DNA of 39,042 nucleotides from Bacteroidota bacterium (lineage in GTDB: Bacteria; Bacteroidota; Bacteroidia; Bacteroidales; Bacteroidaceae), in contig JAEXAJ010000131.1 of assembly GCA_023458215.1 (NCBI GenBank), positions 1 through 39,042 on the forward strand, written 5' to 3'. The translations under genes were made by a program, and so were the position numbers. Shown here piece after piece: positions 28,424-39,042 of the stretch. Numbering within the stretch: the stretch's first letter is position 1; each line of letters starts with the position of its first letter. A model generated the notes under the pieces. That model was not told where the DNA came from. It saw nothing but the letters and a program-made list of their open reading frames with translations, and ran no database searches.

Positions 28424-30094
28424 TCAATATCCGGGATTGTTTTTCTTCTCCAGTTTGTAGTTAATCTGTATCTCATCTTCGGGTATGGGGAGCAATTCAT
28501 GTTTCCCTTTCTGGAAGTTTGTACCGGCCGGATAAGTAACTCTTGTGGACGTATTCAGCTGCGTTTTCTCGCCGAAAAGCTGAACAGCCTCTTTCATAAT
28601 TCCCCATCGGATCAGGTCGTACTTGCGTTGACTTTCGAATGCCAGTTCAAAACCACGTTCCCAGTAAAGGGCGGTGTGGAATTTGCCTTTTTCCTCTTCG
28701 TCATTAATGAAATCGAGATTGAAAACCTTAGGAGCTTTTAAGAGAGATGCATAGTTGGCGGAAGTTATTTCGGTGGCACCTGCACGGCGGCGGACGCTGT
28801 TCAACAATTCCCATGCTTTGGGCGTGTTTCCAATTTCATTATAAGCTTCTGCTGCCATAAGCACGACGTCGGCATAACGCAGAAGGCAGAAATTGACGTC
28901 CGTATAGTTGGGCTCTTTATAGCCGATAGGCATCCATTCGCGGCGCCACTTGCCCGGAGTCCAGTTGCTTGCACTGCTTTCTACCTTTTCGTGTGTTTGC
29001 AAGGCGGCGTTCCATTTCCAAGTATAGGTACAGATGGCAATATCCCGTCGTTCGTCTTTCTCATCAAAGAACTTTTTCCATTCGGGAATGACACGGAAGT
29101 TGACGGCAGCACGTCCCATCACACTGTTGGCATCTGCCGAAGTACTTGGCGCATCTACCAAGCCGCCGATATAGGTACCCCAGCAGCCGTTTGTACCGGG
29201 ATAGTAGAAGGCTACTTCAAACAAGCTCTCTTTAGAGCCGAGTTTGCCCGCCGAGAAATCTTTGAAAAGTGCCGCATAACCTCCGTCATAGAAACCGTGA
29301 TAACCGCCTTGGCTTTGAAAAGCTTCCCATTGTTTAATGACCGCTTTGTAATAGCTTTGGCGTTCGGATTCTTCGGGCTGTGTGATTTTACCATCCGGTT
29401 GTAAGCTGTAACCGGCACGGGTCAGCAATACACGCATCAGTAATGCACGGGCTGCACCTTGAGAGGCACGTTCGGGCGATGTTGAGACGGTAGCCCAAGG
29501 CATGTGTCCGCCGGCAAAAGTAAGGTCTTCTATAATTTGGTCATAGATCGTTTCACGGTCTGTACGGGGCTGGTAGGCGTCTTCGTACTTAGCAGAATAG
29601 GTGGTTTTGAAAGGTACATCCCCCCAGTATCGTACTAAGTCGAAAGCCGATTGTGCACGCAGAAACTTGGCTTCGGCTACAAGGGCTTGCAACTTATCAT
29701 CTTTGGAGTAGCCTTTCATGCTTTCAATGCCGCTGATGCTGTAGTTTGCGCGGTTGATGCAGGTGTATTTCCCTTTCCAGACATCATTCACCCACTGGTT
29801 GGACGGGCGCACAGTGTAGTGGGCCAAGTCACGGCGGGTATTGTCGCTGCCTGTACCGTAGACGTAATACATATCGTCCGAGCAAGGTATTGCCATGCCG
29901 TCTTTGGAACCATAGAGGCTGGGTAGCACGTTGTAGATGCCTATTATAGCCATATCAGCCTTTTCGGCAGTGGTGAAGTAATCTTTGCGTTCATAATAAG
30001 AATCCGGTTGTTCGGTCAGTGTTTCTTCGCAGGCGGTGGTCATCAGTAGACTGGTTGCTAGAAACAGTATATGGAGGAATTGATTTCGTTTCAT
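28424..30094 (-). CDS. SusD-like outer-membrane glycan-binding lipoprotein (operon B)
   Basis: A 556-aa partner of the adjacent SusC. Lipobox ends MTTAC, followed by acidic EETLTEQ, consistent with surface exposure. SusD landmarks: AEKADMAIIGIYN, LVAEAKFLRAQSAFDLVRYWGDVPF, LLRYADVVLMAAEAYNEIG, LNSVRRRAGA, LYWERGFELAFESQRKYDLIRWG and a C-terminal LLPIPEDEIQIN. It begins 12 bases after the SusC stop. No surface glycan-binding protein or hydrolase gene follows; the next gene belongs to the fimbrial-type operon. A weak 7-bp inverted repeat at 28392-28416 follows the stop but lacks a T tract. Confidence 0.95.
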   Translation of the reverse strand: MKRNQFLHILFLATSLLMTTACEETLTEQPDSYYERKDYFTTAEKADMAIIGIYNVLPSLYGSKDGMAIPCSDDMYYVYGTGSDNTRRDLAHYTVRPSNQWVNDVWKGKYTCINRANYSISGIESMKGYSKDDKLQALVAEAKFLRAQSAFDLVRYWGDVPFKTTYSAKYEDAYQPRTDRETIYDQIIEDLTFAGGHMPWATVSTSPERASQGAARALLMRVLLTRAGYSLQPDGKITQPEESERQSYYKAVIKQWEAFQSQGGYHGFYDGGYAALFKDFSAGKLGSKESLFEVAFYYPGTNGCWGTYIGGLVDAPSTSADANSVMGRAAVNFRVIPEWKKFFDEKDERRDIAICTYTWKWNAALQTHEKVESSASNWTPGKWRREWMPIGYKEPNYTDVNFCLLRYADVVLMAAEAYNEIGNTPKAWELLNSVRRRAGATEITSANYASLLKAPKVFNLDFINDEEEKGKFHTALYWERGFELAFESQRKYDLIRWGIMKEAVQLFGEKTQLNTSTRVTYPAGTNFQKGKHELLPIPEDEIQINYKLEKKNNPGY

Positions 30095-30106
30095 GGTTTC
30101 TATTAT

Positions 30107-33100
30107 TTAAAAGGTGATGTTTAATCCGAAGATGAAGGAACGGCTGCGTGGACAGGCTCCATAGTCAACGCCTGGTGTCAGGTTGCTGCCCATGGTCGAT
30201 ACTTCGGGGTCGAATCCGCTGTAAGGAGTCCACACAAAGAGGTTGCTGCCTGTAGCATAGAGACGCAGTCCTTGGATGGACGCTTTGCGTAACATCTGCC
30301 GGGGAAAGGTATAACCGATGCTTACATTGCTCAGTCGCAGGAACGAGGCGTCTTCTACCGCCCAGGAGTGGATGTATTTGTCGCCCATCTCCATATCATA
30401 AATGCAAGCTACTGTTTTGCCGGCATTGAGGGCTGCCAGTTGTGCGGGGTCGGAAACCAAGGCACCCTTGTCATCGATAAGCATCCAGCGGTTGCTGCTG
30501 TTGGCATGATTGAGCACACTGTAGTTGGTGGTGGCGGTCTTGGTGTTTGTCAACTTGGTGGCATTCAATACTTCGCCTCCGTAACTGAAACTGAGAAACA
30601 GACTGAAATCCCATTGTTTGTATTTGATGGAGTTATTCAAACCGCCGTAGAAGTCGGGGTTGGCATTTCCGATGACGGTCATGTCGTCTTCGTTTATCAC
30701 ATCGTCTTTGTTGGTATTGGCAAACTTCCACATACCGGGCTTTACGCTGCTACGGTCGCCCATGCAAGGTATCCCTTTCTTTAAGGTATAGGTCTTGGTG
30801 GCTCCGTCATAATCGAAGTCATCCACTTGATATAATCCCGAAGTCTTATAACCGTAGAACTGCCCGATAGATTTGCCTACCTCTATCTTATGCGTCTTTT
30901 GGGTATAGCCGAAAGCTGCTTCTTCCAGAAAGAACTGTTCGCCGGAGAGGGCTTCAATCGTATTCCGGTTATGGGAGATGTTGAAGTTGGTAGTCCAGGT
31001 AAAGTCTTTCTTCTGGATGTTGATAGACGTAACGGTCAGGTCGAATCCCACATTGCGCGTCTTGCCGATGTTGCGCATCACATTGGTATAGCCCGACGAA
31101 CTGGGTACGCGTGAATTGAGCAACAGATTGGTACTGTTATTAATGTAAAATTCGGGCGAGATAAGGAGGCGTTGTTCCAGAAAGCCTAAGTCCAACCCTA
31201 TATTCAACGTCCGGTTCGATTCCCATTTCAAGTCTGCACTCGGAATACCGGCGGGTGCATATCCCGGCGTCATTGCATCGTTACTGGGATATCCGGCGGA
31301 TGTGAGCAGGTCGAGCGACTGGTAGCTTCCCACGCGGTTGTTGCCCGCCATACCATACCCTATGCGTAGCTTCAAGTCGGAGAACAGGTTCATCTTCTTG
31401 ATAAACTCCTCTTCACCCAATCGCCAGGCACCTGAGATCGAAGGGAAGAAGCCCCACTTATTGCTTTTACTGAATTTGGAAGAACCGTCGGCACGGACGG
31501 TAGCTGTCAGCAGATACTTTTCACCCAGATTATAGTTGGCACGGGTGAAGAAAGAGATCAGCTTATCGTCATAGTTTACGCCCGAACGGATTTCTTTCGG
31601 TGTACCGAGTCCCATGTCATCCAGTCCGATATCGTTGTTGGGAAAGTTGGTGGCTGCGGCTCTGAGGAACTTGGTCCAGCGTGAAACCCATTCTTGTCCT
31701 AACATCAGGGTTAGCTTATGTTTCTTGTTGTGGCTGCGGTAGTCGTAGTTCAGTACGTTGGAGGTCTGGAAACTGCCGCTTTCGTTATAGAGAATGAAAC
31801 CGTTGATGCTCGAACGTTTCCCTTCTACAGATTTGGCTCCGAGGAAGTTATCCTGGCGGGAATTCTGATAACGCATACCGGTACTATTGCGGAAACTGAA
31901 CTGCTTGGTGAAGTTGAACGTAAACCCGCCGTTTGCCTGGAACGTCTTGAGCAGGCGTACTTTCTTCTCCTCCTGGGCTGAGATGATGGGGCTTTGCATC
32001 GGGTTCGACTCGTCATCTTCCAGGAAGGGGTCTTCTCCTTTTATCAAGTCACGGTCGTTGCCGGTCAGTCCGATAACGGGACGGTATTGCAAGATATGTT
32101 CCATCTTGTTGAAGCGGTTGGTGCTTTCCGAAGTACCCATGCCGTATATGTTGCTTTGGTCGTAACTGATGCGTGCATTCGCCTGAAAGCGGTCGGACGC
32201 TTTGTGAGACAAATTGAGGGAGATGTTATGCTTGTTGTTGCCACTCTTGATCATGGCACCCATATCTTTGAAGTAGGCATAACTCAAGCCATACTTTAAC
32301 TCCTTGTTGCCTCCCGAGATGCGTACACGGTAGTTTTGCGAGGTAGCTACACGTCCCAAGGCTTCTTCTTGCCAGTCAACGCCTTCACGGTTGCCATAAT
32401 TCTCCTGTATCTCCATGAACGAACCGTAAAGAGACTGAAACCTTCTGACACCATTCTCTCCGTTCAAAGCAAGACTGCGCTCATAGTCCAGCAGTACAAA
32501 CTCTTCGGGCGAGAGGACGGGCAGCTTACGGGCTATTTTCTTTATACCTATATAACTATCGAAATTGACGGTCATCTTGGAAGCGTCTTTTGTACCCTTC
32601 TTAGTAGTTATTACTACTACACCATTGGCGCCACGTGCACCGTAAATGGCAGTAGACGAAGCATCTTTCAAGATATCGATAGTTTCTATTTCGGCAGGGT
32701 CGAGGTTTGCCATACCGTCTTCACTGGGAAAACCGTCGATGACATACAGCGGTTCGTTGCTTTGCGTAATGGAGATACCTCCACGTACACGGATGGAGAC
32801 GGATGCCCCCGGAGCACCTTCGCTCTGCACGACTTGTACACCGGCTACACGCCCCACCAATGCCTGGGCGGCATCCGAAGTAGGAGTTTGCATCAGATCT
32901 TCACTCTTTACAGAGACTACGGATCCGGTCAGGTCGCCACGTTTGGTATAACCGTAGCCTGTAACGACAACCTCGTCCAGCACTTTGGCATCATCTTTCA
33001 GGGTGATGTCGATCTTGTTTCGTTCTTTAACGGGAACTTCTACCGTTGCCATACCAATATACGAAAATACCAGTACATCCTTTTTAGCATCGCTTACGGT

Positions 33101-33283
33101 GAGTGAGTAATGGCCGTCTATATTTGTGATAGTACCTACGCCTGCTTTTCCTTTAATGGTTACGTTGGCGCCTATCACTTCCAGGCCGGTTCCGTCAATA
33201 ACTTTACCGCTGACGGTGAGGCTCTGTGCATGGAGTTGCAGGCAGGATACAAACAGGCAGATTATAAATAGGATCTTCTTCAT
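30107..33283 (-). CDS. SusC-like TonB-dependent outer-membrane transporter (operon B)
   Basis: A 1058-aa transporter. Signal peptide (MKKILFIICLFVSCLQLHAQ), carboxypeptidase-regulatory-like domain (about 22-100, GKVIDGTGLEVIGANVTIKG), the EVVVTGYGYTKR segment, plug (about 115-235, IRVRGGISITQSNEPLYVIDGFPS...ILKDASSTAIYGARGANG), barrel to the C-terminal RSFIFGLNITF. It is clearly a different lineage from the operon A SusC, so the two pairs probably bind different fragments or glycans. It lies downstream of lyase 3 with a 135-bp gap containing a long inverted repeat. I see no perfect -7 box in that gap, so it may be read from the lyase 3 promoter. Confidence 0.96.
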   Translation of the reverse strand: MKKILFIICLFVSCLQLHAQSLTVSGKVIDGTGLEVIGANVTIKGKAGVGTITNIDGHYSLTVSDAKKDVLVFSYIGMATVEVPVKERNKIDITLKDDAKVLDEVVVTGYGYTKRGDLTGSVVSVKSEDLMQTPTSDAAQALVGRVAGVQVVQSEGAPGASVSIRVRGGISITQSNEPLYVIDGFPSEDGMANLDPAEIETIDILKDASSTAIYGARGANGVVVITTKKGTKDASKMTVNFDSYIGIKKIARKLPVLSPEEFVLLDYERSLALNGENGVRRFQSLYGSFMEIQENYGNREGVDWQEEALGRVATSQNYRVRISGGNKELKYGLSYAYFKDMGAMIKSGNNKHNISLNLSHKASDRFQANARISYDQSNIYGMGTSESTNRFNKMEHILQYRPVIGLTGNDRDLIKGEDPFLEDDESNPMQSPIISAQEEKKVRLLKTFQANGGFTFNFTKQFSFRNSTGMRYQNSRQDNFLGAKSVEGKRSSINGFILYNESGSFQTSNVLNYDYRSHNKKHKLTLMLGQEWVSRWTKFLRAAATNFPNNDIGLDDMGLGTPKEIRSGVNYDDKLISFFTRANYNLGEKYLLTATVRADGSSKFSKSNKWGFFPSISGAWRLGEEEFIKKMNLFSDLKLRIGYGMAGNNRVGSYQSLDLLTSAGYPSNDAMTPGYAPAGIPSADLKWESNRTLNIGLDLGFLEQRLLISPEFYINNSTNLLLNSRVPSSSGYTNVMRNIGKTRNVGFDLTVTSINIQKKDFTWTTNFNISHNRNTIEALSGEQFFLEEAAFGYTQKTHKIEVGKSIGQFYGYKTSGLYQVDDFDYDGATKTYTLKKGIPCMGDRSSVKPGMWKFANTNKDDVINEDDMTVIGNANPDFYGGLNNSIKYKQWDFSLFLSFSYGGEVLNATKLTNTKTATTNYSVLNHANSSNRWMLIDDKGALVSDPAQLAALNAGKTVACIYDMEMGDKYIHSWAVEDASFLRLSNVSIGYTFPRQMLRKASIQGLRLYATGSNLFVWTPYSGFDPEVSTMGSNLTPGVDYGACPRSRSFIFGLNITF

Positions 33284-33323
33284 AATGAGTTTTTTTGTGG
33301 TTATGAATGAAATGACAGAGAGG

Positions 33324-33408
33324 TTTTAGACATAAGAACAAAAGAACAAATTAGGAAACATAGGTTATATCATTTAGTGAATATGTTCTTTTGTTCTTAT
33401 GTCTAAAA
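33324..33408. repeat. Perfect 25-bp inverted repeat between lyase 3 and SusC of operon B
   Basis: Arms at 33324-33348 and 33384-33408 are exact reverse complements and flank a 35-base AT-rich loop. In the minus-strand transcript this makes a strong hairpin but it is not followed by a T run, so a simple intrinsic terminator is unlikely. It may block 3' decay of the lyase mRNA, attenuate SusC expression, or be a remnant of a small mobile repeat. No target-site duplication is seen at its edges. Confidence 0.85.
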
Positions 33409-33418
33409 AACAATATTC

Positions 33419-35944
33419 TTATTCCGGTTTTGCCCCTGTAAAGGAAGGTTCGAAACTCGGCATTTCGTACAACGACTGTTTGCCGTCTATTTCATCGTAC
33501 AATACGGAAGCGCCTTTAGTATAAGCATATTTCTTGCCACCTATCTCTATCTCAGTACTGCCGAAGCTGAATTGTGCCCCGTTATCCGGATTGTTAATAC
33601 TGATTGCAGCAGGTTTGCCCGGGTCCATTTCGGCTTTGATGTTCCATTTGCCACTGCGGAAGTGATTGCCGTTACGACTGAGCATCTTCCGGCTTCTTCC
33701 GTCGGGCAATATCTGAATAATGGTAAGTACACGGTTGGCACTGCTCGGAGTAAAGGCAGCGGTGAGGTGCCACTGATTGGGTATCTTGCGGTTGTGCTTG
33801 ACGAGCTTCGCATTAGGGGCGGCTACAAACTGGTCTGTTTGAGACAACGTATAGTCACTGTTACTGAATATCTGGGCAAGCGAGGAGAATTTCTTCTCGT
33901 CATAGCGGGTAGTCAGCAACTTGCTTTGCTCGTCTATCTGGAATTGTACGGGGCTGTGGAGCAACCAATCCCAACGTACCGGCTTTTCGGCTTCCATTTC
34001 GTCATAGATCACTACGATATCGGGATGCAGCATGAAGAGATGGCGGCGATAGAGCTTCAGCGGTGTTTCTCCAAAACCGTTTTCTACCGATTGTTCTACT
34101 TTGCTGTCTGCGAAGAACTTCTCCCACATAGGATATTCGCTGATACCCGAATAGGCATTAGAGGCGTCTCCCAAGGCGTATGAGATATTCTTTCCGTTCA
34201 GTGCCCGTACTATTTTGCCGTAGCCTTTGGTAGAGAAGGGCTGCCCTATTCCATCTACCAAAATGGTGTTGTGGGCACGGGTATGGCGATAGGAGAGCAG
34301 GTTATGCGGGTCGCTGAAGTTAAGGTAGTATCCGGTGGAGCGATATACCGGAACACCCCGATAGTGCAGGTTGAAACCATTCTGATCGGCCAGTGTATGG
34401 CTTCCTGAACCGTAAGAACTGGAGCGGAAACTCAGGAATAGGTTGTTTCTATATCCGTTGAGGTCGGAGTGCATCATCATTTCGCCGGTATCTTCCAGCC
34501 AAAGGGCTTTGGGAGCATCTGCGGGAAGTGTTTCTACGGGGTCATAGTTCTTGGATGCCGAACGGGCAATGCGGTAAAGGCGTATGTCAAAGTCGCCCCC
34601 GGCATTCTTGCATTGGGTGGCATACCAGGCAGCATACGTATCTCCTGTTTCACGGGCTATGAAATCGGCAAAGGCAGTGCGTTGCTTCGGAGGGATTGCT
34701 TCGCCTTCATTACCATCGCCAAAACCGGCACTCATCGAACGGGGCGGCCATACGTAGGCCATTGTCCTTCCGGCATTCTGATACCAGGGGTGTTGCAGGA
34801 AGTCGGTCTTTGTTACATACGACATCAGGCTGGGGACGTAGAACAGGGTTTTCAGATTGGCATCGAAATAGCCGTGTCCGTTGTGCCACTCTCCGTCTCG
34901 GTTGAAGCCGCTGGCGGGGGCACGTGCCGTCCATAGTTCATAGCAATATTCCAGTATCTCTTTGCCTTGAGGATCTTTGTCGCCAAATAGCAGTCCTATC
35001 TGCAACATCTCGCGGAAGGCACGTTGCCAGTAGTGGTTGTCGAAAATGTGGTTTTCTACTTCGCCGGTGCGTTGGGTGTTATGATGTGCTTTGGCGGCTT
35101 TGAAGACGAGTTGTTTGAGTTGCTCGCGTTCGGTTTCGGAGAATTGGTTGTAGCAGAGGTCGTAGGTATGTGTCAATACATAGAGCAGGTCGCCGGCATA
35201 GAAGTCATTTTTCAATAGCTTTTCGTTGGGGGTGGCTTTCAGCAGTTGGCGCACAAAAGCTACCATTTTGTTGCCGTAGGCTTCATCGCCCGTCAGTGCA
35301 GAAGCGGTGTGCATATGGCAAAAGTAGAGGGCGGCTTTTCCGGCCACGTCAAAGGGGTTGGGGGCGGATTGGTAGTCAAAGTCGAGTCCCATCTTGGCTC
35401 TGCGAATCATATCCTGATATTCCGGGTGAGTTTGAATGCTCTTGTGTGCTTTCTCGATGTCTTCATTCAAGAAACAATAGAGACGTGGGCTTTCGGTGGG
35501 CATGTTCTTGAAGAACACTTCGAAGGAGGGTGTTACAAATTGGGGTATTTCGTCCGAGATAGTGAAATCGTATGTCTCGCTCCAAGGTAGGGATGTTCCG
35601 TCTTGGGTGACCGAACGGAAGCGCCAGTACCACGTACCGTTGCTTAATACTTGATGTGGGTTGAACATACACCACAGCAAGGGTTTTGAAGTAATAGTAT
35701 GGCCTACAGGGAATGACTTGTCGGTAGAGAGTTCAAATTGGAGAAACTCCGCTTTGCGCATCCCTTTGGGAACCAACAAGGGAGTGGGGTTCAGGTAGGG
35801 AGTATGAAAAGATTGCGGATAAGGAATTTCGCGCATATTTTCGTGTACACGTACCAGAGATGTTTTTTGAGCAGTGGCATACCCTGTACCTATCAGCAAT
35901 GACATGAGGGTTACAAATAGCAGTTGAAAGGACTTTGTTTTCAT
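33419..35944 (-). CDS. Heparinase II/III-type polysaccharide lyase 3 (DUF4962 type)
   Basis: An 841-aa paralogue of lyases 1 and 2 with an ordinary signal peptide (MKTKSFQLLFVTLMSLLIGTG, then YATAQ), hence probably periplasmic. Same architecture: FN3-like domain (about 45-130, WCMFNPHQVLSNGTWYWRFRS), alpha/alpha toroid, heparinase II/III sandwich. Putative catalytic residues are Asn303-His304 (DNHYWQ), Tyr359 (WHNGHGYF) and His516 (GSGSHTLADQNGF). It differs from the others at these sites by Tyr after the His and Ala-Asp in the SHTLADQ block, perhaps reflecting altered specificity. It is the first gene of operon B, ahead of SusC and SusD. The candidate regulator motif at 36042-36070 lies upstream. 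Substrate unknown. Confidence 0.86.
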   Translation of the reverse strand: MKTKSFQLLFVTLMSLLIGTGYATAQKTSLVRVHENMREIPYPQSFHTPYLNPTPLLVPKGMRKAEFLQFELSTDKSFPVGHTITSKPLLWCMFNPHQVLSNGTWYWRFRSVTQDGTSLPWSETYDFTISDEIPQFVTPSFEVFFKNMPTESPRLYCFLNEDIEKAHKSIQTHPEYQDMIRRAKMGLDFDYQSAPNPFDVAGKAALYFCHMHTASALTGDEAYGNKMVAFVRQLLKATPNEKLLKNDFYAGDLLYVLTHTYDLCYNQFSETEREQLKQLVFKAAKAHHNTQRTGEVENHIFDNHYWQRAFREMLQIGLLFGDKDPQGKEILEYCYELWTARAPASGFNRDGEWHNGHGYFDANLKTLFYVPSLMSYVTKTDFLQHPWYQNAGRTMAYVWPPRSMSAGFGDGNEGEAIPPKQRTAFADFIARETGDTYAAWYATQCKNAGGDFDIRLYRIARSASKNYDPVETLPADAPKALWLEDTGEMMMHSDLNGYRNNLFLSFRSSSYGSGSHTLADQNGFNLHYRGVPVYRSTGYYLNFSDPHNLLSYRHTRAHNTILVDGIGQPFSTKGYGKIVRALNGKNISYALGDASNAYSGISEYPMWEKFFADSKVEQSVENGFGETPLKLYRRHLFMLHPDIVVIYDEMEAEKPVRWDWLLHSPVQFQIDEQSKLLTTRYDEKKFSSLAQIFSNSDYTLSQTDQFVAAPNAKLVKHNRKIPNQWHLTAAFTPSSANRVLTIIQILPDGRSRKMLSRNGNHFRSGKWNIKAEMDPGKPAAISINNPDNGAQFSFGSTEIEIGGKKYAYTKGASVLYDEIDGKQSLYEMPSFEPSFTGAKPE

Positions 35945-36041
35945 AATAGTATATTTTGTTCTTTTCGTATCGCTAAAGTAGCCCTTTTGCCGATAAATAG
36001 CTTTTGCGCCTGTTCCGGGTATTTGTAGTCCGGTTTATTTA

Positions 36042-36070
36042 GCTTTCAAGTCTGTGCAGCGGACTTTCAT
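36042..36070 (-). promoter_or_regulatory. Candidate HTCS operator upstream of operon B
   Basis: Minus-strand ATGAAAGT, TGCACA and GAAAGC blocks in the same order as at 17721-17750, with the two GAAAG cores 21 bases apart. It lies about 98 bases before the lyase 3 start. A perfect -7 box at the spacing seen in operon A is not visible, so the promoter here is weaker or differently placed. Confidence 0.5.
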
Positions 36071-36171
36071 TTTTGTGCTAAAAACTGTTTTCCGGTGCTA
36101 GGAGGATCGTTAAAAGAACTTTTCCGGGCATCTTATTTCTCTTCTCTGTGTTCTTTCATTCTTCGAAGTAC

Positions 36172-36179
36172 CATCTTTG
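36172..36179 (+). promoter_or_regulatory. Possible -7 element of the recombinase gene
   Basis: CATCTTTG matches seven of eight positions of TAnnTTTG, 37 bases before the recombinase start codon. No -33 box is obvious. The rest of the 272-bp gap 35945-36216 holds the operon B upstream motif and nothing else I can name. Confidence 0.35.
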
Positions 36180-36216
36180 GAGAGATATTCTATGACTTAC
36201 TAAACAACTGTATGTT

Positions 36217-37200
36217 ATGAAAAGGGAAAGAAAGAAAAAGGAAAAAGAAGAGGAGCCGATAGACTTTACCGACTTTATGCTTCGGGTAATTAATGAGTTG
36301 GAAGAGGAAGAGCGTTACAGCACGGCACATGTGTATTGGTATGCTTACCAAGCTTTCGCGGAGTTTGTAGGCGGTGGTAAGATCTTCTTCGGAGCCATCA
36401 ATCGCTACTCGCTGAAACGTTTCGAGAAGTACGAGGGCGACCGGCAGAAGAAGTGGAACACGATTTCTACGTATGTCCGTGCCCTGCGGTCGGTGTATCA
36501 CCGGGCGGTAGATGCAGAAGTGATTCCCGGCGAGTATCGCCTGTTCAGTGGTGTGTTTACGGGTACAAAGGTGGAGCAGAAGCGGGCATTGCAGGACGAA
36601 GAGATGCGACGGCTGCTGAAGGATGATGAGTTGTGCGAACCTTTGTGCCAAGCACGAGATTTGCTCTCGTTGATGTTCCGTCTGCAAGGCATGCCCCTGG
36701 TGGACTTGCTGCACCTGCACCGGGGCGACCTGCACACCGATGCCATCGGCCTCACCGTGCTGACTTGCCACCGCCAGAAGACGGGCACGCCGCTACGGGT
36801 AACCGTCACTGCCGAGGCATTGGCACTGATTGACCGCTATCGCAGCACCGATCCCGCCTCGCCCTACCTGCTATGCTTCTTCGACGGTATTACCGGAGCC
36901 AAAGACATCTACCATGAGTACTGCCGCCAACTGCGACTGCTCAACAGTAGATTGGCCAAGCTGGCTGCTTTCCATGGACTGACCGGCGTGCGGGTAAGCT
37001 CGTACACTGCCCGCCATACTTGGGCTACGGCTGCCAAATACTGTATGGTGCCCGAAAGCGTGATATCCGAAGGACTAGGACATTCATCGCTCGAAGTGAC
37101 TCGCACGTACCTGAAAAGTTTTGAATGCGGAGAACTGGAATTGGCTAACAAACTTGTGATGGCACGTGTTCTTCTCGGAGAGGCAAGTTGTTGGAAATGA
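36217..37200 (+). CDS. Tyrosine-type site-specific recombinase (DNA invertase class)
   Basis: A 327-aa cytoplasmic recombinase, probably the enzyme that flips the adjacent promoter segment. A highly charged N-terminus (KRERKKKEKEEE) precedes a SAM-like core-binding domain (about 15-110) and a catalytic domain (about 125-320). Active-site residues by pattern: Arg155 (MFRLQGMPLVDLL), Lys188 (HRQKTGTP), Arg266 with Tyr263 in place of the first His of H-x-x-R (SSYTARHTWATAA), His289 (LGHSS), nucleophile Tyr298 (TRTYL). That Tyr substitution is, from memory, common in Bacteroidales invertases. The gene stops 11 bases before the left inverted repeat, the arrangement of locus-specific Bacteroides invertases. 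The second half is markedly G+C-richer. A phage or transposon integrase is less likely since no other mobile-element genes are nearby. Confidence 0.88.
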   Translation: MKRERKKKEKEEEPIDFTDFMLRVINELEEEERYSTAHVYWYAYQAFAEFVGGGKIFFGAINRYSLKRFEKYEGDRQKKWNTISTYVRALRSVYHRAVDAEVIPGEYRLFSGVFTGTKVEQKRALQDEEMRRLLKDDELCEPLCQARDLLSLMFRLQGMPLVDLLHLHRGDLHTDAIGLTVLTCHRQKTGTPLRVTVTAEALALIDRYRSTDPASPYLLCFFDGITGAKDIYHEYCRQLRLLNSRLAKLAAFHGLTGVRVSSYTARHTWATAAKYCMVPESVISEGLGHSSLEVTRTYLKSFECGELELANKLVMARVLLGEASCWK

Positions 37201-37211
37201 AACTTGTATAG

Positions 37212-37235
37212 TAGTTACTTGTTAGGTAACGGAAA
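37212..37235 (+). repeat. Left inverted repeat of the switch (recombination site)
   Basis: A 24-bp arm, exact reverse complement of 37512-37535. It contains the dyad GTTAC-TTGTTAG-GTAAC (37214-37230): 5-bp arms around a 7-base spacer, the usual layout of a tyrosine-recombinase core site. The base outside and the bases inside the 24-bp arm do not match, so the edges are sharp. Confidence 0.88.
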
Positions 37236-37249
37236 GGCCTAAACCACGA

Positions 37250-37257
37250 CAAAGATA
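37250..37257 (-). promoter_or_regulatory. -7 element of the invertible promoter, facing left (OFF)
   Basis: Minus-strand TATCTTTG, a perfect TAnnTTTG, preceded by a T/A-rich stretch but without a perfect TTTG -33. Transcription would begin near 37243, cross the left repeat and run antisense into the 3' end of the recombinase gene. Confidence 0.65.
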
Positions 37258-37511
37258 TAAAAAGAGTTTAAAACAGTGGTATATAACACTCTTTTATTTG
37301 TACATAAAGCACGATATTTCCTTTATAAGACTCTTGAACCCTAAAACCTACCTTATTTTTTCATTCTTTACGTGGAGTAAACCATGTGTCGTGCCACCTT
37401 GCGCTTTTGTCAAAAACGCGAGGTCGGATGCTTGTTGCCTTTACTGAACCTACAAATCGAAAATACGGGTGTCATGCCTCTGCAACGCCTTGCAGATTGG
37501 TGTATTTGTGG

Positions 37512-37535
37512 TTTCCGTTACCTAACAAGTAACTA
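37512..37535 (-). repeat. Right inverted repeat of the switch (recombination site)
   Basis: Exact reverse complement of 37212-37235, with the same GTTAC-N7-GTAAC core read on the minus strand. Its outer edge lies 41 bases before the start codon of the 86-aa gene. Confidence 0.88.
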
Positions 37536-37576
37536 AGCCCCCCAAAGCTAGAACATAAAGTATTAAATTACTACTT

Positions 37577-37837
37577 ATGAAGAACAAACAAACATATAAA
37601 AAAGGTGATAAAGTATGGGTACAAATACCCACAGCAGGTAACAACCCTACCAAACACCTTGCATTGATTCTGGCAGTATTACTAACTCCAACTCATTATA
37701 ACCGGGAACTTCACTTTGCAGTCCGCTATCTGGACAACACAGGCACAGCCGCTTATCAATGCATCCCCGAAAGCTGGATCGAAGGACTTGCCAATGATGA
37801 ACAAGTAAACAATGTACGAACAACAATATATCATTAA
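37577..37837 (+). CDS. Small SH3-like protein, first gene of the switched operon
   Basis: An 86-aa protein with no signal peptide, hence cytoplasmic. I do not recognise a named family. The opening YKKGDKVWVQIPTAG, the middle HFAVRYLDNTG and the closing CIPESWIEG resemble the strand-turn pattern of small SH3/KOW/Tudor-like barrels (GDKV-, -RYLD.G- and -PES.I-). Such folds bind nucleic acid or protein, so a regulatory role in the downstream transcript is possible but only a guess. It lies 41 bases after the right inverted repeat and 40 before the lipoprotein gene, so it should be co-expressed with it when the promoter is ON. Confidence 0.7.
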   Translation: MKNKQTYKKGDKVWVQIPTAGNNPTKHLALILAVLLTPTHYNRELHFAVRYLDNTGTAAYQCIPESWIEGLANDEQVNNVRTTIYH

Positions 37838-37840
37838 CCC

Positions 37841-37859
37841 TCTTCCCGCCTCGGGAGGA
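37841..37859 (+). promoter_or_regulatory. Hairpin between the 86-aa gene and the lipoprotein gene
   Basis: An 8-bp stem with one G-U pair (37841-37848 with 37852-37859) and a 3-base loop, followed by CTTTAAAAAC. It lies just after the stop of the 86-aa gene. It could attenuate the downstream lipoprotein gene or be an mRNA processing point; there is no clear T run. Confidence 0.35.
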
Positions 37860-37877
37860 CTTTAAAAACTCAATTTT

Positions 37878-39042
37878 ATGATGAAAGCAATTAGATTCTA
37901 TGCCATGCTCCTTGTAGCAGCAGTGGCAATGTGGAGTTGCGGTGACGATTATGACGACACCGCTTTGAGAAAAGACGTAAGCGATCTGCAATCGCGAGTA
38001 GAGAAACTGGAAGCGTGGAGCACCACCGTGAACGGGCAGATCAGTGCCCTGCAAGGATTGGTCACCGCTCTGCAAGAGAATGACTACGTGACAGGCGTAT
38101 CGCCCATCACCGTAGACGGAAAAACCGGTTACACCATCACCTTCACCAAAAGTGACCCCATCACCATCTTCGACGGTCTGGACGGAAAGAACGGCGCTGA
38201 CGGTACCACTCCCGTAATCGGTGTAGATAAATTCACCGACGGAGTTTACTACTGGACGGTGAAGACCGGTACAGCCGCTGCTATCTGGGTAAAGGATGCC
38301 GCCGGCAACAAAATACCCACTACCGGCGCTGTGGGCGCAACACCCCAGTTGGGCGTAGCCACCCACACAGATGGTAAAGTGTACTGGCAGTTGAACGGCA
38401 CTTGGTTGAAAAACGGTCAGGACATGGTACCCGCCACAGGCGATAAAGGCGAAACCGGAGCAACAGGTGCCCAAGGCGACACTGTGTTCAAGAAAGACGG
38501 TGTGACAGTGAATGCTGACAATACCGTGACCTTCACCCTGGCGGGCGACAATGGAGCTACATTTACTTTGCCTATGGCCGATGCCATCAATATTTTCAGT
38601 GACTTCAGCACTATCACTACCGCCGCAGCAAAGGACATCACACTGGCACTGAACATAAAGGATGCTGATTATGCTGCCATCAAAGCCGAAGTGACCAACA
38701 ACAAGGGACTGGGCGCAGCTGTTGCCACTCGCGCTGCCAGAACACCGTGGACGGTAGCTATCAAGCAAGTTCCGACCTTCAATGCCGATGGCAGCATCAA
38801 GGACCAAGCTATCGTTACCGTTACCCCTCCGACAATGGATGATGCGATAAAAGACACAGACACCGCTCTGCTGAAAGTAACAATCGTAGGCAAGGATGGA
38901 AAAGAGCACACCGCCACCCGTGTACTTTATTATAGCAATCAGATAGAGTGGGCAGAAGGTAACTTGATAGCCAACGCCGATAATAGCGGTTGCGAAATAG
39001 GTGCGCCAACCGATGCCGGTTTGTACTTCCAGTTCGGTTCGC
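37878..39042 (+). CDS. DUF4988-type surface lipoprotein, 5' part (runs off the window)
   Basis: At least 388 codons, open to the window edge. Lipoprotein signal ending AMWSC, then acidic GDDYDD, as in surface-exported Bacteroides lipoproteins. A coiled coil follows (about 30-70, DVSDLQSRVEKLEAWSTTVN), then the DUF4988 pattern (VSPITVDGKTGYTITFTKS, IFDGLDGKNGADGTTPVIGV, GVYYWTVKTG, ATPQLGV). A short collagen-like G-x-y run is at about 188-202 (GDKGETGATGAQGDT). Beta-rich domains then begin. The domain also occurs at the N-terminus of PL29 lyases, so an enzyme or an adhesin could follow beyond the edge. The start at 37878 or the next codon is equally good. Expression is predicted to be phase-variable through the upstream switch. 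Confidence 0.85.
   Translation, partial: MMKAIRFYAMLLVAAVAMWSCGDDYDDTALRKDVSDLQSRVEKLEAWSTTVNGQISALQGLVTALQENDYVTGVSPITVDGKTGYTITFTKSDPITIFDGLDGKNGADGTTPVIGVDKFTDGVYYWTVKTGTAAAIWVKDAAGNKIPTTGAVGATPQLGVATHTDGKVYWQLNGTWLKNGQDMVPATGDKGETGATGAQGDTVFKKDGVTVNADNTVTFTLAGDNGATFTLPMADAINIFSDFSTITTAAAKDITLALNIKDADYAAIKAEVTNNKGLGAAVATRAARTPWTVAIKQVPTFNADGSIKDQAIVTVTPPTMDDAIKDTDTALLKVTIVGKDGKEHTATRVLYYSNQIEWAEGNLIANADNSGCEIGAPTDAGLYFQFGS

Follow-up and report, generated by a model that had tools for sequence, protein, structure and literature searches.

Local phase switches of the kind considered here are already well known in Bacteroides. The available portion of a study of B. fragilis (PMC4747536) describes the Tsr19 recombinase (BF2766), which flips a local promoter and also a distant one, and IVp-I, which is about 1% ON, a bias that is lost once a plasmid supplies the recombinase. 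It also describes extra repeat copies at the EPS switch, with lower expression where there are more copies, and Mpi, one serine recombinase that acts on many capsule loci. For BT1927, the accessible text of PMC12548429 reports an invertible promoter that lies between short repeats, targets a surface lipoprotein and is ON in about 1 in 1,000 cells. Invertase-linked Bacteroidales promoters (PhaseFinder invertons and the IP-ARG classes) lie directly downstream of the invertase gene, and the consensus for such promoters is TTTG at −33 and TANNTTTGY at −7, as given in the part of PMC8748976 at hand.

We analysed a 39,042-nucleotide stretch of DNA from a Bacteroidota bacterium (contig JAEXAJ010000131.1), the whole of which we call the window, and conclude that it most likely holds an additional local phase switch of the Tsr19/BT1927 type. 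As in the Tsr19/IVp-I system, a tyrosine recombinase gene is followed by short repeats around a promoter and then by a surface-molecule operon, and such switches are mostly OFF; the cargo is EPS there and a DUF4988 lipoprotein here. As at BT1927, a presumed invertible promoter flanked by repeats has a surface lipoprotein as its target, and, as in the invertase-linked Bacteroidales promoters, the segment lies directly downstream of the invertase gene. Mpi capsule promoters are also invertible and serve surface molecules, but there a single serine recombinase serves many capsule loci, whereas the window has a local tyrosine recombinase; no capsule gene was found in the 1.5 kb of sequence that the window still covers after the segment. 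Neither the serine recombinase and capsule operon of the Mpi type nor the S-layer lipoprotein of the BT1927 type was seen at this locus. Our preferred reading, to which we assign a probability of roughly 0.87, is that positions 37212–37535 form an inverton that is flipped by the adjacent tyrosine recombinase and switches an operon for an SH3-like protein and a DUF4988 lipoprotein.

Inverted repeats between a recombinase gene and a lipoprotein operon

The presumed invertase gene (36217–37200, plus strand) encodes a tyrosine recombinase of 327 aa with PF13102 and PF00589 matches above cutoff. Behind it lie two inverted-repeat arms of 24 nt, at 37212–37235 (plus strand) and 37512–37535 (minus strand), which are exact reverse complements of each other (24/24) and enclose a presumed invertible interior of 276 bp (37236–37511) that contains no listed open reading frame (ORF) of at least 80 aa. 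The left arm has the core GTTAC-TTGTTAG-GTAAC, the presumed recombinase site. It starts 11 bp past the end of the recombinase ORF, and the right arm ends 41 bp before the start of an 86-aa ORF. This pair was the sole perfect inverted repeat of at least 13 nt at a spacing of 150–450 nt in the window, and none of 300 first-order Markov shuffles of the 2.2-kb region reached 14 nt or exceeded 13 nt. The first-pass annotation had claimed perfect 24-bp repeats around a non-coding interior, placed 11 bases after the recombinase and 41 before the operon, and the ORF and repeat coordinates bear this out. A recombinase of the Phage_integrase family thus stands 11 bp from fully complementary arms whose core is shared with relatives, as in local Tsr-type invertons.

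Membership of the phage-integrase family would also fit a reading without inversion, in which the repeats mark the ends or attachment sites of a mobile element or form an RNA hairpin. The whole segment is stable when folded against shuffles (z = −5.8 and −5.4). Stripped of its arms, the interior folds no better than shuffles on the minus strand (z = −0.66), and Rfam gave no match in 36000–38000, which led us to drop an RNA element. We also dropped a mobile element or attachment site, because the arms enclose no ORF of the size given above and the layout recurs in relatives with the promoter in a fixed place. Both forms of this alternative are very improbable. An exact 17-mer of the repeat was present in three stretches of viral contigs; tblastn of these three found no recombinase, small-protein or lipoprotein match, and the plasmid collection searched alongside gave no match.

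Related modules share a repeat core and a promoter position

Relatives of the recombinase were collected by a contig scan (2 loci), from one genome, from 301 genomes of the family (5 loci at E ≤ 1e-70) and from 158 genomes of a genus (45 loci at E ≤ 1e-60). Perfect arms of at least 14 nt lay directly 3′ of the recombinase in 38 of the 44 genome loci with sequence (L003–L046), a figure that does not count independent events, since there are near-copies among the loci (for example, L016 and L017; L003 is the L001 locus). The other six (L004, L005, L011, L015, L042 and L044) had no perfect arms of this length 3′ of the recombinase. Together with the Pfam domains, the published switches of this kind, and the conserved promoter position and the inversion at two relative loci described below, this recurrence makes the original proposal for this DNA the best reading, namely an invertible promoter that is linked to a recombinase and serves a surface lipoprotein, not a capsule.

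With the window and L078 added, the 38 loci with arms formed a set of 40 modules, whose interiors ranged from 223 to 402 nt. A TTAC-N7-GTAA core was found in 37 of the 40, window included, with 15 different 7-bp centres; GTTAC-N7-GTAAC was the dominant core among relatives. Within each locus the two arms shared their centre, partly as a consequence of the arm search, which demanded exact arms. The segment might instead be inverted mainly by a recombinase encoded elsewhere, with the neighbouring enzyme acting elsewhere or on several sites; Tsr19/BF2766, which flips both a local and a distant promoter according to the available portion of PMC4747536, offers a precedent. We judge this quite unlikely, because recombinase and repeats adjoin each other in 38 of the 44 loci, with 15 different repeat centres. 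A further likeness to Tsr19/IVp-I is that extra repeat copies also occur in relatives, on the recombinase side of the segment (L001, 8948–8998; L051, 6460–6509; L052, 11930–11979).

A search of both strands of the segment's interior for TAnnTTTG gave exactly one Bacteroides-type −7 box, TATCTTTG, at 37250–37257 (minus strand), separated from the left arm by 14 nt. Because this box is directed toward the recombinase, the orientation in the window is OFF; after inversion, the box would occupy 37490–37497 and face the operon. The single −7 box of the first-pass annotation was therefore recovered, but that annotation had overlooked both the OFF orientation and the poor −33 element. In an alignment read by eye, the −33 position is TACC in the window, as against TTTG-like sequences in relatives, so the promoter may be weak or may need help. 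At L012, the other DUF4988 switch in the promoter alignment set, the −33 position is likewise off consensus. Set against the invertase-linked Bacteroidales promoters in the part of PMC8748976 at hand, the window matches at −7 but not at −33, and its cargo differs.

The exact −7 box of the window sits at a conserved distance, as each of the 38 modules whose state could be called had its better box at 10–18 nt from the arm. Most of these 38 had a TTTG-like −33 element at a fixed spacing of 20 nt from the −7 box; relative to the box, positions −24 to −21 were T in 26, T in 29, T in 36 and G in 28 of the 38, window included. The −7 box was exact in 17 of the 40 modules and had one mismatch in the rest. 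The better box was on the recombinase side (OFF) in 36 modules and on the operon side (ON) in two (L014 and L046), and the state of the remaining two (L008 and L078) could not be called. With exact boxes only, 16 modules were OFF, one was ON and 23 gave no call. The survey thus yields consensus sequences for repeat and promoter, and it shows a strong bias toward OFF among these modules.

These features suggest how the switch could work. The recombinase (36217–37200) would bind the two inverted GTTAC-N7-GTAAC sites and flip the 276-bp interior. In the orientation in the window, the promoter would read away from the operon (OFF). In the flipped (ON) orientation, the −7 box would be separated from the right arm by 14 nt, and transcription of the operon would produce a leader RNA that includes the repeat. 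The genes for the SH3-like protein and the DUF4988 lipoprotein would be co-transcribed, and the few cells that are ON would display the lipoprotein in a presumed adhesin-like role.

Inversion among relatives

L056 and L057 are orthologous loci in two genomes, and EPS genes follow their segments. Identity between the two interiors is 49% in the given orientations and rises to 68% when one of them is reverse-complemented. The same two loci in the genome survey (L013 and L014) gave an interior alignment score of 285 reverse-complemented and 109 as given. On their gene content, L056 and L057 appear to be tsr19 loci; their recombinases are 44–45% identical to that of the window, with R157/E296 as against Q157/R296. 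The interior of L046 is flipped relative to those of L035, L040 and L041. Among the well-scoring interior pairs, 4 were flipped and 113 had the same orientation, and the four flipped pairs rest on L014 and L046. Because the interiors of these two relatives match others only when reverse-complemented, inversion does occur in this switch family, as judged from aligned sequence. None of the flipped pairs falls within the window's own recombinase clade. Compared across related loci, L014 and L046 were inverted, and all eight modules of the window's clade were OFF.

Residue exchanges in the recombinase

The window recombinase has an intact ORF and retains K188, R266, H289 and Y298. Among the best 120 of 2349 homologs, K188 and R266 were each kept in 120 and H289 and Y298 in 119, and residue 157 was Q in 118, H in one and R in one. 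This residue was R in 33, Q in 7 and H in 4 of the 44 genome loci, and Q in 126, R in 34 and H in 5 of 165 sequences. In the latter set, residue 296 was R in 125 of the 126 Q types and E in 30 of the 34 R types. The window recombinase is Q157/R296, and R296 lies beside the catalytic tyrosine, Y298. In a tree of 77 tips, the 38 Q types and two non-Q members share an ancestor (support 0.51).

We dropped position 157 as the canonical motif-I arginine, because by our own reading of a profile alignment to 4a8e this arginine falls at P160; column 160 is P in 41 of the 44 loci. R157 of the relatives would at best be a relocated motif-I arginine, and a relocation of the active-site arginine in the Q157/R296 clade is possible. 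A displaced catalytic arginine is known from the CTnDOT integrase, according to the available text of PMC8138268. Within a general picture that is unchanged, it is the bias toward OFF and the exchange of arginines that merit specialist attention.

Alternatively, the switch could be dead, or nearly so: a former inverton locked OFF by decay of its recombinase or promoter. The Q-type clade, in which 8 of 8 modules are OFF, window included, points this way, as do the replacement of R by Q157 in the motif-I region and the degenerate −33 element (TACC); together with the presence of a switch at only 2 of 25 DUF4988 loci (see below), these are the counterpoints to the inverton reading. We nevertheless consider a dead switch unlikely. 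The arms are perfect over 24 nt, the recombinase ORF is intact with its K, R, H and Y kept in 119–120 of the best 120 of 2349 homologs, and R296, present in 125 of 126 Q types, looks like part of a working variant. An OFF bias is also normal in such systems, as the available parts of PMC12548429 (BT1927, about 1 in 1,000 cells ON) and PMC4747536 (IVp-I, about 1% ON) indicate.

In the OFF orientation, the promoter reads antisense toward the 3′ end of the recombinase gene (across 37200–37257), from a distance of about 50 bp. A doubtful but conceivable elaboration of the inverton reading is a self-limiting switch in which OFF-state antisense RNA would repress the recombinase and ON cells would make more recombinase and flip back, with a clade that would use R296 in place of the usual catalytic arginine. 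Antisense repression, if true, would explain the OFF orientation of 36 of the 40 modules, and the loss of IVp-I bias with plasmid-supplied recombinase, as reported in the accessible portion of PMC4747536, fits this feedback. Terminators were absent within 120 nt between the OFF-facing promoter and the recombinase in 38 of 40 modules; we discarded this absence as evidence because the same detector scores only 2 of 24 convergent gene ends.

The operon behind the segment

The first gene of the presumed switched operon (37577–37837, plus strand) encodes the 86-aa protein, which has no Pfam match and, by eye, no evident signal peptide. A structure model built on an alignment of 4 sequences (pLDDT 79) predicts a five-strand SH3-like barrel. 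Foldseek returned 773 matches at E up to 10, of which none reached 0.001 (best 0.026); the top weak matches were PWWP and chromo-barrel domains and 5ycq, which we take to be HspQ. The model agrees with the small SH3-like partner proposed earlier. Four sequence clusters of the small protein were found, including that of the window, and a search of the 158 genomes, run without a positive control, found none. The longest contigs of the small-protein clusters P0122 and P0124 (41409 and 29279 bases) have the same values as those of the recombinase clusters P0001 and P0010, so the small protein probably travels with this switch. A regulatory role for it would be a guess. In L001 (9314–9688) and L050–L054, the first gene after the repeat encodes a different-sized small protein of 124–126 aa (alike by eye), and these modules belong to one recombinase clade. 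The 124-aa protein of L001 has an Rrf2-like match below cutoff and gave no local alignment to the 86-aa protein.

The lipoprotein gene (37878–39042, plus strand) runs off the end of the window, which contains its N-terminal 388 aa with DUF4988 (PF16378). By eye, the N-terminus has a lipobox followed by the acidic stretch CGDDYDD, and a short collagen-like stretch is also present. These acidic residues resemble the export signal described in the available part of PMC12632263, which consists of acidic residues after the lipoprotein cysteine. The closest full-length allele, P0160, has 534 aa and is 89% identical over 379 residues. The last ~79 shared residues are identical and the differences lie mainly in the DUF4988/collagen-like middle, as in a mosaic gene. 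The C-terminal region of P0160 matches Fib_succ_major (32.5 bits, cutoff 33.9) and Lcl_C (29.4 bits, cutoff 34.9), both just below cutoff, and the predicted structure of this allele has a mean pLDDT of 35. From P0160, the complete window protein is probably about 544 aa long, with DUF4988, a coiled coil and an Lcl_C-like end, and we infer that it is adhesin-like. The gene had been described as encoding a large surface lipoprotein; a DUF4988 lipoprotein it is, but 'large' is doubtful given 388 aa in the window and 534 aa in the closest allele. In NCBIfam, the BT3328 hyaluronate lyase model alone was matched, in its N-terminal part and far below cutoff (64.9 of 1100 bits), so this N-terminus is common to different surface proteins. 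In the literature searched, mostly papers outside subscription, no DUF4988 lipoprotein was described as phase-variable; DUF4988 appeared there in one row of an expression table (available part of PMC10434189).

Cargo of related switches

First genes were listed for 27 modules. By Pfam, fimbrial-type cargo was found at L001 (Mfa_like_1), L053 and L054 (DUF3575), L050 (DUF5119) and L065 (DUF3868), and EPS genes (sugar transferase, polysaccharide export, Wzz/kinase) at L056. The cargo of L059–L064 and L066–L069 is presumably S-layer-type lipoproteins, and we take L059 and L061 to be BT1927-like. The products of these two loci had no Pfam family above cutoff, hence no DUF4988, which sets the DUF4988-bearing window lipoprotein apart from them; it aligns with the L059 product over only the first ~70 residues (E 0.003). 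The cargo of local phase switches in Bacteroides, which includes S-layers, fimbriae and EPS, is thereby extended by a presumably adhesin-like DUF4988 lipoprotein.

We also surveyed 25 loci of DUF4988 relatives (L078–L102) taken from a longer list. A recombinase and repeats lay upstream in 2 of the 25, the two closest, L078 and L079 (the L055 locus); two others, L099 and L101, had too little upstream DNA to judge. The cargo of L055 is a BspA-type LRR protein whose N-terminal DUF4988 region is 47% identical to that of the window. At L078, the recombinase is 35% identical to the window's and the repeat centre is different. Related DUF4988 N-termini thus occur behind two recombinase subtypes and bear either LRR or Lcl_C-like tips, a pattern which suggests that switch and cargo may be exchangeable units. 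The DUF4988 frame of L078 (1501–2508), the closest relative in the 158 genomes (52%), carries one TAG stop. On the other side of the window's recombinase, and divergent from it, lies a polysaccharide locus (28424–35944, minus strand) with a SusD-like protein, a SusC-like TonB receptor and a DUF4962/heparinase II/III-like protein.
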